Below are positions 34,319 through 39,109 of a DNA stretch of 39,109 bases, one piece after another. Both the position numbers and the translations under genes were made by a program. Position 1 is the first letter of the stretch. Each line of letters starts with the position of its first letter. This DNA comes from Bdellovibrionota bacterium (GTDB lineage: Bacteria; Bdellovibrionota_G; JALEGL01; DATDPG01), in NCBI GenBank assembly GCA_035292885.1, contig DATDPG010000081.1, positions 1 through 39,109 on the forward strand. Direction: 5' to 3'. The notes under the pieces were generated by a model. The model did not search any database, had not been told where the DNA came from, and saw nothing but the letters and a program-made list of their open reading frames with translations.

Positions 34319-34347
34319 TTGACCCAGATCAGGAAAACATTTAATAT
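34319..34347 (+). promoter_or_regulatory. Sigma-70 promoter of the FecR/lipoprotein operon
   Basis: TTGACC (34319-34324) and TAATAT (34342-34347) are 17 bases apart; TATAAT overlaps at 34345-34350 with 20-base spacing. The leader of about 70 bases before ATG 34426 contains a GC-rich segment of uncertain structure. Confidence 0.6.
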
Positions 34348-34425
34348 AATCGAGTAGTTAGATAGCGACACCCGCGGCGACAACCGCCTCGCGAACAAGG
34401 GGTCGCAAATGTTCTCAATACATTG

Positions 34426-36804
34426 ATGGATCAACCACAGGCCGAAAATCGGACCGACGTGCGGCCTGAAGAACCCTCTTCTAGACCGTCGTGGCGTGTC
34501 TATTTTAAGTATCGAAGCGTACAGCTCGTTCTGGCGCTCGTGTGCCTGTGCATCGGCGTCTATGTCTATTTCGCCCACTCCCGTCGGGCGGACATCGACC
34601 GGCAAGGGGAGGTCATCGCGAAATTGACCTTCCTGCGGGATCGGGTCGAAGTTCGGTACGCGGGCGAATTTACCTGGCGGAAAAGCGTGCCCGATCTTCC
34701 CCTCATGAACGAGGATGCCGTCAAGACATACGAGGATTCGGGTGCCATGGTGGAATTCGGCCCCCAGTCCTTTCTTAAAGTCGGGGAAGATTCTCTCGTC
34801 ATCATCCGAAAAGCGCCGGGAGAGGGGGAAGAGTTCATCGAGGTGCGGCAGGGAGAGATCGAGGGGACTTCGAATCGCCCGCTTACGGTGAAAATGGCCG
34901 ACAAGGAGACCCGATTCACGCCGGGAGAAGCGGGTGTCGGTCGGTTTGAGATTGCCCTTCAATCCGGCGGGAACGGCGAGTTGAGGCTTCTGGAAGGGAA
35001 ATCTGAAATCAAAGTGGGCGAGGCGAAAACGGAACTTAAACAGGGAGAGGTCGCCACGCTCAAGGAAGGCCAGATCGCCGGTATGACCGTGATCAAGCCG
35101 CCAAATGTCGAGGGTCCCGTCGACCGGACGACGATTGAGATCAATCCGGAAACGGGTGCAGCGCCGCTTCACCTCGCGTTCGAGGATCCAAACAAAGAAT
35201 ACCGTATCGAGATTTCTCAAGATCCCCGATTCACCCGCACCGTAATTGCGGACCAGGTAAAGGGCGGAAGTTTCGAAGCCAAGAACCTGGGAGAGGGCAC
35301 GTACTATTGGCGCGTGGCGGAAGTGAATCCGGACGGTTCTCGGAGCGTCTACACACCGGCCAACCGAATCAGTCTGGAGTTGCCGCGAGGCGGCGAGTCT
35401 TTCCCACCCGACCTTCGCTCGGCACCCCCGTCCATGGCCGTGATCGACGGAGGAGATCGAATTCGAATCGTCCGGAGCGGCCGAGAAATTGCCGTTGCGG
35501 ACGCCGGGGGGATTCTGCCGGGGGATCATGTGGGGGGCGTGGGGGGAGGGGAGACCGTCTTTCGAGTCTCTGAAAACGAACAAATTCGATTGATGGAAGA
35601 ATCTCAGGTCGTGGTGAACGACCTGCGTCGTGACGCCAAGGGGGGAATCGGGTCCAAACTTCAGCTGGAAAAGGGGAGCATTCTTCTGCGTTTGCAACGA
35701 AAAGAAGGTCAGCCTCGGGCGCAGCAGGAGATTCTGGTTGACGGCCGAAAATATCTGTTTTCCACGGACAAGATAGACGGTTCGAGTGCCGAGATTCTTT
35801 TGACACGGGACGAAAAGGGGAGCGTACAGGCACGGGTGCTGAGCGGATCGGTCTTGGCCAAGATTGGAAACGACGACGTGCGGTTGGAGGCAATGAAGAC
35901 CGCCACGATTACACGGGAAGGCCAGCTATCGGCGAAAAAGGCCGAGGAGCCCGTAGATCTCGTGCTTCATGAAGGAATGGCATCCAATGTTTTTTATTCC
36001 CCGGGTCTCACGTTGATCGCGATGGAGTGGGCGGATCGGGGAGGGAAAAGCACGTTTCAATGTGCGCGGGACGATTCGTTTCGGAAGCTGGTCAGCGAAC
36101 AGCAGGTCACCGGGGGGCGCGCGGTGATGGCGGTGCCCGGCGCAGGCGTTTTCTTCTGGCGCCACATTTCGGCGGGGCAAGCTTCTCCGCCGACCCAGAT
36201 CGGATTCTTTCCGGGCCACGATTCTCGCGCCGGCGCGTTCAAGAGTGTGGTTCGCCCGAACATCCAGAACGTCGTGTTCGGATCGCAACCGCCGGTACTG
36301 ACGTTTGAATGGAAAGGGTCGCCGGGTATCGCGCGATACCGGTTCGAAATGTACCGAGACCACGACGGCAAACAAAAACTGTTCGAAAAAGAAGTCGTGC
36401 GGACCACGTCCGTAGGCTTCTTCGCCGATTTTCTCGGCGAAGGGGATTATTATTGGCGCGTTTTCTCCTTGGATTACAAGGCGCACGTCGTCGACGAGGG
36501 GAAAATGTTCCATGTCCGGCTCGATCGGAATCCTTTGGCCCCCACCGTCGACATCGCGTACCCGGAAGAGACGCAGACGACCTCGGACCGGATCCTCGTG
36601 GCTCGAGGAATGCTCTTGTCGGACGGAGAACTGTCGATCAACGGCCAGACTCTCCGAAAAGGGAGCGCGGGGCCGTTTACCGTTCGGCTCGACCTTCAAG
36701 ATGGGACGAACTCATTGGTCTTTAAGGAAACCCGGGAAGGGCAGAAGGTTTCTTACTATCTTCGTAAAGTCGTTCTGGAAACCGGAAAGAGGTCGGCTCA
36801 GTGA
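34426..36804 (+). CDS. Membrane-anchored periplasmic protein with two FecR-like regions and Fn3-like modules
   Basis: The 792-residue product has a cytoplasmic tail of 30 residues, one transmembrane helix (about 31-50) and a large periplasmic part. Residues about 65-225 resemble a FecR domain (strand-rich; KTYEDSGAMVEFGPQSFLKVGEDSLVII, then LKQGEVATL). A fibronectin-like module ends with EGTYYWRVAEVNPDGS near residue 300. A second FecR-like region follows (GETVFRVSENEQIRLMEESQVVV...LEKGSILLRL), then another pair of Fn3-like modules with GVFFWRHIS and GDYYWRVFSLD and a C-terminal strand-rich part. FecR domains in such proteins often bind glycans or partner proteins rather than transduce iron signals; no FecA or sigma factor is adjacent. 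It heads a four-gene operon; the next start overlaps its stop (GTGA). Function is unknown. Confidence 0.8.
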   Translation: MDQPQAENRTDVRPEEPSSRPSWRVYFKYRSVQLVLALVCLCIGVYVYFAHSRRADIDRQGEVIAKLTFLRDRVEVRYAGEFTWRKSVPDLPLMNEDAVKTYEDSGAMVEFGPQSFLKVGEDSLVIIRKAPGEGEEFIEVRQGEIEGTSNRPLTVKMADKETRFTPGEAGVGRFEIALQSGGNGELRLLEGKSEIKVGEAKTELKQGEVATLKEGQIAGMTVIKPPNVEGPVDRTTIEINPETGAAPLHLAFEDPNKEYRIEISQDPRFTRTVIADQVKGGSFEAKNLGEGTYYWRVAEVNPDGSRSVYTPANRISLELPRGGESFPPDLRSAPPSMAVIDGGDRIRIVRSGREIAVADAGGILPGDHVGGVGGGETVFRVSENEQIRLMEESQVVVNDLRRDAKGGIGSKLQLEKGSILLRLQRKEGQPRAQQEILVDGRKYLFSTDKIDGSSAEILLTRDEKGSVQARVLSGSVLAKIGNDDVRLEAMKTATITREGQLSAKKAEEPVDLVLHEGMASNVFYSPGLTLIAMEWADRGGKSTFQCARDDSFRKLVSEQQVTGGRAVMAVPGAGVFFWRHISAGQASPPTQIGFFPGHDSRAGAFKSVVRPNIQNVVFGSQPPVLTFEWKGSPGIARYRFEMYRDHDGKQKLFEKEVVRTTSVGFFADFLGEGDYYWRVFSLDYKAHVVDEGKMFHVRLDRNPLAPTVDIAYPEETQTTSDRILVARGMLLSDGELSINGQTLRKGSAGPFTVRLDLQDGTNSLVFKETREGQKVSYYLRKVVLETGKRSAQ

Positions 36805-38042
36805 AGCCGCAAAAGAAATTCAATCTTGTTCTGATCGGCGGATTGTTTTGGGCCGGCACCGGATCCGCCGTCGCCCAGGAAAATGCGGTCGTGACCGAAG
36901 ACACTTTTGCGGCCGAGGTCGTTCAGACGCTCCCGTTTGAAAACGATCCTTCCGTAGATCTGAAGCGGGAATTCGATTTGCTGCTCCACCTTCTTCACCA
37001 GCGAAATTCCTTTATGCTTCTGCCGACGTCATTTTCGAAGCGCCTTCAGGGAAATACGAAAGAGGATTCCGGTCCGGGGCGGCAGAAAGGAACGGTGAAG
37101 GCGACGGATGGCGCGACATCGCTTGTGTTCCACGTACCGGTATCGGCGAAAGGACCTTACGAAATGAAGGGGACCCATTCGGGTCAGGCGCAATACTGGA
37201 CGATACAGGGAGAGCCGACCTTTTTTGTGGAAGGCGCCGATGATTCCAAACCGATCCGAATCGAAGGTTCCGCAGCCGCCGGAGGACTGAAACGGTTCAC
37301 GATCTCTCTCCCCGAAGGGGCCCGTCTCGGTCCCATTGCCATGCAGACGTCGAGCGGCCGATCGATGCTCCCGCCGGAAGGTTTGGAACGCGGACGTGTG
37401 CTTACCGAGCGTACCATGCTGGAAGTGTTCGCCCGTATCCTTGGAAAATTGGGCCGGCTTCCGAAGAAGTCCGGAGTTCAACCGTTGGCCGTGCGTGCCG
37501 CAACGCCCCAAGCGCGACTGAGTATTGCCCCGCACACGTATCGATTCGATGTTCCCCGCGCGGGGTGCTATGCCTTTCACTTAGAAGGTCGCGGCTCCTT
37601 GTTCAAACCCAAACTCGACGGCCAAGAGATCGGTTCACTCGTTCCGGGCGCGCCGGCGCCGGAGGGTGAAGAGGGCGGGAAAGCCGTTTTCTTGACACTC
37701 GAGGCCGGAGAACACGAATTCAACATCCCTGCCGGGTCGGCCGAAGAACCGACTCTAATCATCGAAGAATTGGAAGAAGGAAGAGACGCGTACAAGAAGC
37801 TGATGGCGGATATTGGATTTGAGGCGGAAAATCTGGAAACGCCGGTGACTCAAGGCCGGCTGCGCCGCGCGCTTGTTATTCTCGGAAGCCTGTTGCGGCC
37901 GCGCGTAGCTTCGGAGGACCGGATTTGGATTTTGTCGGAGGAGGAGCAGGCGAAGCAAATGGAGGCTTATCGATCCTATTGGAGCGTGCATTTCCCTTCG
38001 GTTCGACCGCCTGTCAGTCCGGTGCTGCCGCAAGGAAATTAA
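36801..38042 (+). CDS. Periplasmic protein of unknown function
   Basis: The 413-residue product starts at GTG 36801, overlapping the stop of the FecR-like gene. A signal peptide (MKPQKKFNLVLIGGLFWAGTGSAVAQ) with cleavage after AVA is clear. The mature protein has a predicted helical start (DLKREFDLLLHLLHQRNSFMLLP), a strand-rich middle that may form two beta-sandwich modules (SLVFHVPVSAKGPYEMKGTHSG..., and YRFDVPRAGCYAFHLEGRGSLFKPKLDGQEIG), and a helical C-terminal part (DAYKKLMADIGFEAEN). The middle modules recall carbohydrate-binding or Fn3-like domains, but I cannot name a family. Coupling to the FecR-like gene suggests that the two proteins work together. Confidence 0.75.
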   Translation: MKPQKKFNLVLIGGLFWAGTGSAVAQENAVVTEDTFAAEVVQTLPFENDPSVDLKREFDLLLHLLHQRNSFMLLPTSFSKRLQGNTKEDSGPGRQKGTVKATDGATSLVFHVPVSAKGPYEMKGTHSGQAQYWTIQGEPTFFVEGADDSKPIRIEGSAAAGGLKRFTISLPEGARLGPIAMQTSSGRSMLPPEGLERGRVLTERTMLEVFARILGKLGRLPKKSGVQPLAVRAATPQARLSIAPHTYRFDVPRAGCYAFHLEGRGSLFKPKLDGQEIGSLVPGAPAPEGEEGGKAVFLTLEAGEHEFNIPAGSAEEPTLIIEELEEGRDAYKKLMADIGFEAENLETPVTQGRLRRALVILGSLLRPRVASEDRIWILSEEEQAKQMEAYRSYWSVHFPSVRPPVSPVLPQGN

Positions 38043-38045
38043 ATC

Positions 38046-38657
38046 ATGCGAAAACCGCCGATGAATACAATCCTCCCAGCGATTTTCTTGTGCGCGGGAG
38101 TTGTGCTCACGTCGTCCTGTGCGAAAACGATCCAGATTGAAACTCGGGCACCGGCCGCCTCTTCGAAAGGAATACAGAAAATCGCCGTGTTTCCGCTGAC
38201 GAATTACTCCACTACAAAAGACGCCGGCAAGATTGTGGGTTCCATGTTGGCCGGTGATTGGAAGGGGCGAAATCCCGGTCAAGAAGTCGTCGATGTGGAG
38301 ACGGCGGCCCGTTTCTTGGGCGAGAAACATGTCCGGGTGCCGGAGACGATCGATCGTGTCAAAGCCGTTGAATTGGGGTCGATTTTGGGAGTCGATGCCA
38401 TATTGGCCGGGAGCGTTTTGGAATATGGAACGGTCTCGCGAGCTCGCCGCAAGGTCATCGTCCAAGAACCCGTCATCGGCATTGAAGTCATCCTCGTACG
38501 CGTGAAAGATGGTCTGGTCTTGTGGAACGGCTTTCATGCCCGCACCAGCGACAGCCTGACCGTCCCTTCACGGGACACGCCCGAAAGCGTCGCCGCCCAA
38601 GCCGTGTCGGAACTGGTCGGGAACTATCTGTCGAGGGACACGAATGCAAAAGATTGA
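38046..38657 (+). CDS. Lipoprotein with CsgG/TolB-N-like core (first of tandem pair)
   Basis: The 203-residue product has a signal peptide with lipobox LTSSC (about residue 25; a start at ATG 38061 is also possible). The mature core begins KIAVFPLTNYSTTKDAGKIVGSML and continues to LGVDAILAGSVLEYG, the alpha/beta pattern shared by CsgG, GNA1162/DUF799 and TolB-N-like proteins that assemble on the inner face of the outer membrane. It ends with the RVKDGLVLWNGFHA strand and a helix. It lies three bases after the previous stop. The next gene, a paralogue, starts inside its last codons. I infer an outer-membrane-associated assembly role, but the exact function is unknown. Confidence 0.8.
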   Translation: MRKPPMNTILPAIFLCAGVVLTSSCAKTIQIETRAPAASSKGIQKIAVFPLTNYSTTKDAGKIVGSMLAGDWKGRNPGQEVVDVETAARFLGEKHVRVPETIDRVKAVELGSILGVDAILAGSVLEYGTVSRARRKVIVQEPVIGIEVILVRVKDGLVLWNGFHARTSDSLTVPSRDTPESVAAQAVSELVGNYLSRDTNAKD

Positions 38658-39109
38658 CGGCCGGTTTCGGTGCCTGATCGCCGGAATATTGATTTTGGGT
38701 GGATGTGCGAAACTATCGACGCCGGGCACAACGGCGCCGAACGCAGCCGAAACACTCAAACAGATCAAGTGTGTGGCCGTCGTCCCTTTTGACAATCGCA
38801 CCTCCGACAAAGCCGCCGGAGATGTCATGGCAAGACTCGTCAGCATGGCCGGAATGTCTTCGGGTCGGTTTCGTGCCATGGATTCGGGAAGTGTGACCAC
38901 CTATCTCGGGTTCCAGAACGTCCAAATCGCTTCCGTCACCGATGCGCGATTCGCCGCAAATTTGGGAAAACTGCTCGACGTGGACGCGGTCCTTATGGGC
39001 AGCGTTGAGGAATACGGTTATCGGAATGCGGGCGGACGGTCGGTATCCGAACCGGCGGTGGCGATGTCCGCCCGGCTTGTCGCCGTGGGGACCGCCGAGG
39101 TGGTGTGGA
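38644..39109 (+). CDS. Paralogous lipoprotein with CsgG/TolB-N-like core, 3' truncated by window edge
   Basis: ATG 38644 overlaps the preceding gene by 14 bases in another frame, and the frame stays open to the window end (155 codons visible). The signal peptide has lipobox LGGC (Cys23). The core CVAVVPFDNRTSDKAAGDVMARL, then LGKLLDVDAVLMGSVEEYG, aligns with KIAVFPLTNYSTTKDAGKIVGSML and LGSILGVDAILAGSVLEYG of its neighbour, so the two arose by tandem duplication. Divergence is substantial, arguing for distinct roles, perhaps as hetero-oligomer subunits. Confidence 0.85.
   Translation, partial: MQKIDGRFRCLIAGILILGGCAKLSTPGTTAPNAAETLKQIKCVAVVPFDNRTSDKAAGDVMARLVSMAGMSSGRFRAMDSGSVTTYLGFQNVQIASVTDARFAANLGKLLDVDAVLMGSVEEYGYRNAGGRSVSEPAVAMSARLVAVGTAEVVW

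Follow-up and report, generated by a model that had tools for sequence, protein, structure and literature searches.

A PelC-like lipoprotein pair in a putative polysaccharide-export operon of a Bdellovibrionota bacterium

What is built by four genes that lie, after a divergent polA, at the very end of a contig of a Bdellovibrionota bacterium? The window analyzed here is the entire contig DATDPG010000081.1 (39,109 nucleotides; hereafter C81) of a 3.1 Mb genome, 97% complete (assembly GCA_035292885.1). Open reading frame (ORF) calls identified four genes on the + strand: A, which encodes a protein with FecR-like and Fn3-like modules; B; and Lp1 and Lp2, which encode lipoproteins. Start and stop codons overlap at A/B and at Lp1/Lp2, and B is spaced from Lp1 by 3 bases. 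This bears out a preliminary description of the DNA as holding at least four overlapping genes, in that the genes overlap or nearly abut on the same strand. The genes named there are real, but Lp2 is cut by the contig itself, which stops at 39109 in mid-operon, and not merely by the window. The same description suggested a trans-envelope complex or export channel, and this is supported by orthologous operons that run into genes for a barrel, a Wza-type outer membrane polysaccharide export (OPX) protein and Wzc. The operon most likely exports a long sugar polymer across both membranes, as a seven-gene composite OPX/beta-barrel machine.

The missing part of the operon can be read in an Oligoflexia bacterium metagenome-assembled genome of the same phylum (G004), whose contig C68 carries the unbroken order A-B-Lp1-Lp2(OmpA)-barrel-OPX-Wzc. 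OmpA, which had been anticipated beyond position 39109, was found here fused to Lp2, a protein that bears TSP3 and C-terminal OmpA domains in this genome. The G004 OPX has a Poly_export domain (3e-18) and two SLBB domains. When it was used to search the genome of the window, the best match (43% identity, E 1.9e-60) was at base 880 of contig C12, in a protein that exceeds the Poly_export cut-off. Contig C12 opens inside a barrel gene and continues with OPX and Wzc in fitting orientation, the Wzc having Wzz, GNVR and AAA_31 matches and a Tyr-rich tail. Both OPX proteins end straight after the second SLBB domain, and that of G004 has no Wza_C match. Because the synteny of G004 matches the start of C12, C81 and C12 almost certainly hold a single operon that a break in the assembly has divided. 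In a contig scan with OPX, the only matches identified by name were G004 and a Vibrio locus. Two other OPX loci in the genome of the window (C201, C189) had none of these genes in the stretches read. Downstream of Wzc, C12 also encodes a 2055-residue protein of unknown function (L027:6016-12183).

Lp1 and Lp2 carry lipoboxes (TSSC and LGGC, respectively), as do their G004 counterparts, and both contain the IAVFP..N / VAVVPF.N motif. At 35% identity (E 2e-18) they are the two diverged paralogous lipoproteins that the preliminary description had recognized. Its label 'CsgG/TolB-N-like' was too weak and is corrected here, because PelC gives the best matches. A Pfam-type family search returned weak matches to GNA1162, CsgG, TolB_N and LpoB. 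A profile of five lipoproteins searched against solved structures placed PelC first (5T11 2e-12, 5T10 3e-12, 9H80 2e-8, 5T0Z 5e-8), followed by GNA1162 (1.6e-4) and LpoB (2.7e-3), with no CsgG structure reaching E 1. When Lp1 was modeled with AlphaFold (mean pLDDT 75), the best 19 Foldseek matches in the PDB were all PelC (5e-9 versus 6e-4 for CsgG), after which came GNA1162, FlgT, LpoB and CsgG. Sequence profile and predicted fold of Lp1 agree in relating Lp1 and Lp2 to PelC; the LpoB, GNA1162 and CsgG lipoproteins have the fold family in common with them, but PelC outscores these in each of the structure comparisons. Both proteins of the window retain the EP...W (EP..vg) motif and, within it, the position of PelC Trp149. 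With the CsgG family, the incomplete Lp2 scores 16.2 bits against a cut-off of 20.8 (E 0.0065), Lp1 has no match, and Lp2 of one relative (G171) reaches 1.1e-8; the sole match over the cut-off in the genome of the window is an unrelated CsgG protein on contig C118. Two further PelC-like proteins were observed. One is another OmpA protein of the genome of the window, with a PelC-like N-terminal region and adjoining a TPR protein (L031:390-1679), and the other a lone lipoprotein of G004 (L045:201-815) that adjoins nucleotide-sugar genes, with the OPX-Wzc genes of a second exopolysaccharide (EPS) locus ~6 kb away.

The arrangement is conserved well beyond the phylum. Five genomes of a family of another phylum (f25: G024, G171, G309, G389, G390) have B-Lp1-Lp2-barrel-OPX-Wzc in identical order, without A, and here Lp2 ends in a LytR_C domain (E 6.7e-7). 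In G153 and G060, which represent two further families, B-barrel-OPX-Wzc is followed by a Wzy_C/TPR polymerase-ligase. A barrel-like gene of ~380 codons adjoins OPX in all complete operons, with weak family matches (OMP_b-brl 1e-4 in G153). The OPX proteins of these operons form one cluster (support 88/93), separate from the remaining OPX proteins of G000, G001 and G004. The preliminary description had made its proposal depend on relatives keeping the four genes together; this holds for B-Lp1-Lp2, while A is kept in this phylum only. Tandem PelC-like lipoprotein pairs were found by profile search in many genomes. In 56 further genomes with PelC-like matches, comparison of positions by eye placed none of these matches closer than 10 kb to an OPX gene, so the OPX link belongs to this lipoprotein lineage. 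Many PelC-like genes of those 56 genomes adjoin genes for CxxCH-rich proteins, which look like multihaem cytochromes, and for large barrel-like proteins or porins.

B had no match in Pfam or NCBIfam and none among solved structures. Relatives are present in G004 and several other families, and by sequence B is a new protein family. Its C-terminal [VI]SPxxP tail is conserved and is a candidate docking peptide. In G024, G386 and G389 there is a second copy in which B is fused to Lp1 and followed by Lp2; this fusion in three genomes suggests that B and Lp1 act together. In the other EPS locus type of the phylum, a protein of 173-183 residues and unknown family precedes the barrel (L028:5928-6479, L044:10867-11388, L045:11364-11906). 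Its C-terminus is always PPASPFR or PAASPFR, recalling the SPxxP tail of B.

Protein A has a single N-terminal membrane helix by hydropathy and a FecR match (E 5.7e-5) slightly below the Pfam cut-off, which the G004 orthologue exceeds (7e-8). Comparison of A with itself supports a second FecR-Fn3 unit that arose by internal duplication (hhalign 95%, blastp 1e-6), a third Fn3-like '(F/Y)YWR' unit is backed by blastp (1e-4), and a C-terminal beta domain follows. This agrees with the earlier view of A as an inner-membrane-anchored protein with two FecR-like regions and Fn3-like modules. The earlier statement that the locus is not one of classical FecR signaling is likewise supported. FecR signaling was rejected, as no TonB receptor or extracytoplasmic function (ECF) sigma factor gene occurs in the operon or in those of its relatives (sigma factors were not searched genome-wide). 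Among the other four genomes of the phylum, only G004 has a strong A orthologue (23% identity, E 2e-42). A FecR-A profile run over 385 genomes matched, beyond G000 and G004, other FecR/Fn3 proteins, and the loci checked had neither OPX nor B; A thus appears as an extra confined to this phylum. One of these matches, in G133, is flanked by CsgG-type proteins. A trio of CsgG-type, FecR and CsgG-TPR genes in an unrelated genome, with no OPX gene nearby (L090:5911-9036), gives a second association of FecR with the CsgG fold besides the one in the window.

Three known systems invite comparison. The export backbone of the operon is of the same class as the composite OPX/beta-barrel translocon (EpsX/EpsY of Myxococcus xanthus, PMC9601211; 'Class 3 OPX', PMC9603273). 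In M. xanthus, an OPX protein without a membrane helix works with a separate barrel, a pairing with experimental support (PMC9601211). Like EpsX/EpsY, the short OPX of the operon (one Poly_export, two SLBB, nothing after) adjoins a barrel-like protein and a Wzc-type polysaccharide co-polymerase; unlike EpsX/EpsY, the operon adds PelC-like lipoproteins, B and A upstream, and the text of PMC9601211 makes no mention of PelC, FecR, OmpA or CsgG. In the second system, PelC forms a twelve-fold ring beneath the PelB barrel (PMC12141448). Lp1 and Lp2 share with PelC the fold, the lipid anchor, the EP..vg motif and the interfacial Trp. The operon differs from Pel in having two PelC-like paralogues where Pel has one, in the loss of the D-loop Asp, and in its partner barrel, a separate short protein accompanied by OPX and Wzc. 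Since a search for PelG in eight genomes gave no match, a Pel locus was rejected. The third system is the group 4 capsule operon of Escherichia coli, gfcABCDE-etp-etk (PMC8592465), which likewise combines a lipoprotein (GfcB), a periplasmic protein (GfcC), a barrel (GfcD), an OPX protein and a tyrosine kinase in overlapping genes. There, GfcB, GfcC and GfcD interact with each other, and fusions of GfcC with GfcD occur (PMC8592465). B, Lp1 and Lp2 have no Pfam match to GfcC, GfcB or other gfc families, and the likeness looks analogous, not homologous. Full-text searches, which covered open but not subscription papers, turned up no account of PelC-like proteins at OPX loci. The earlier suggestion of an undescribed system holds only in part: the export backbone belongs to a known class (PMC9601211, PMC9603273), and the novelty lies in the PelC-like pair, B and A that accompany it.

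Because a helix-less OPX, a barrel-like protein and PelC-like proteins occur together, we propose a Wzc-OPX-barrel channel with a PelC-like collar. The model is built on observed gene content, gene order, orthology and the PelC relationship, from which we infer assembly into a ring, the contacts between proteins, the exported substrate, what A and B do, and the join of C81 to C12. Wzc, an inner-membrane co-polymerase and tyrosine kinase, would together with OPX deliver the polymer to the barrel in the outer membrane. On the periplasmic side of this barrel, Lp1 and Lp2 would most likely assemble into a ring or collar, as PelC does under PelB, and the OmpA (G004) or LytR_C (f25) end of Lp2 would tie this collar to the cell wall. 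B may act as an adaptor in the periplasm: it would bind Lp1, and perhaps also the sugar chain, and dock through its [VI]SPxxP tail. In this phylum only, A would serve as an inner-membrane tether that spans the periplasm via its FecR and Fn3 modules. More specifically, and tentatively, the assembly could be a hybrid outer-membrane polysaccharide translocon in which a heteromeric Lp1/Lp2 PelC-like ring, anchored to the cell wall via Lp2, and adaptor B clamp a Class 3 OPX/barrel channel. If so, PelC rings would not mark Pel in particular but would serve polymer exporters generally as a collar. How the polymer is handed over from a periplasmic OPX to a separate barrel is an open question (PMC9601211). 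Operons that join PelC-like lipoproteins with OPX, barrel and Wzc connect the Pel and OPX pathways and offer a testable part list, and the new family B and the fusions B-Lp1, Lp2-OmpA and Lp2-LytR_C suggest which proteins are in contact.

Several observations weigh against this account. The D-loop residue Asp119 of PelC, which contacts PelB arginines, is replaced in Lp1 and Lp2, a loss to be expected if the partner barrel differs from PelB. Lp1 of f25 is without a clear lipobox, and neither G153 nor G060 has an adjacent Lp gene. The occurrence of PelC-like pairs beside cytochrome and porin genes implies that having this fold is not in itself a mark of sugar export. The barrel-like protein of G004 (382 residues) has a weak BBP2_2 match (E 0.13), and an AlphaFold model of B built from two sequences was unusable (pLDDT 33). 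No end overlap was found between C81 and six other contigs; the C81-C12 join is drawn from synteny, with roughly 0.5-1.1 kb missing. Finally, no glycosyltransferase, flippase or polymerase gene is adjacent to the operon in either the genome of the window or G004.

The alternative that survives best, though we consider it unlikely, is that Lp1, Lp2, B and A carry no polymer and instead sense the state of the envelope or peptidoglycan, and thereby regulate either the exporter or a synthase of the wall, much as LpoB does with PBP1B. Such a role would suit the weak LpoB matches, the OmpA domain on Lp2, which suggests wall binding, and FecR, by name a periplasmic signaling domain. LpoB nevertheless falls far under PelC by both profile and fold, and the genes that follow encode barrel, OPX and Wzc rather than a penicillin-binding protein. 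It is highly improbable that the adjacency is coincidental, that is, that the four genes merely happen to lie next to an unrelated exporter in G004 and are hence on separate contigs in the genome of the window. The join there is unobserved, A is absent outside the phylum and adjacent Lp genes are lacking in G153 and G060, but the same order is found in G004 and in five genomes of another family, the genes overlap, and the OPX proteins cluster together. A curli-type (CsgG) or other protein-fiber secretion channel is the least credible, since the Pfam traces of CsgG in Lp2 of the window and of G171 are set against a CsgG fold far behind PelC, the lack of any CsgG structure in the profile search, and linked genes that belong to polysaccharide export. 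A type IX locus was also considered and rejected; a match of the lipoproteins to curli or type IX loci, which the preliminary description had named as one outcome that would overturn it, was not found.

Table 1. Coordinates of the features discussed, in positions of the window
Feature	Position	Strand	Remarks
Promoter-like match	34319..34347	+	claimed in the preliminary description; not above chance
Gene A	34426..36804	+	ORF, 792 aa; alternative start TTG 34423
Gene A, predicted membrane helix, residues about 32-50	34519..34575	+	hydropathy maximum 2.4 over 19 residues
Gene A, first FecR-like region, residues 98-161	34717..34908	+	Pfam PF04773, 23.9 bits vs cut-off 24
Gene B	36801..38042	+	413 aa, predicted secreted periplasmic; GTG start overlapping stop of A
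Gene B, conserved tail VSPVLP	38013..38030	+	Ser-Pro retained in 11/12 B proteins
Lp1	38046..38657	+	203 aa PelC-like lipoprotein, lipobox Cys25
Lp2	38644..39109	+	N-terminal 155 aa (rest beyond contig end), PelC-like lipoprotein, lipobox Cys21

The sigma-70 promoter that had been placed ahead of A (Table 1) was not confirmed: TTGACC-17-TAATAT fits 9/12 bases, and 1 such match was found where 1.5 were expected in shuffles. Tandem PelC-like pairs that adjoin multihaem and large barrel-like proteins occur in several families (L130, L131, L132, L139-L144, e.g. L140:7093-9872). The five cytochrome-linked pairs tested form their own clade (95/96) and are perhaps a collar for porin-cytochrome conduits. 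The divergent neighbors of the B operons are alike in f25, G153 and G291 (L129:4974-7940, L164:10891-14965, L165:2354-6453); they read as a pentapeptide-repeat protein and an adjoining FHA-like or TPR-like protein and are possible regulators.

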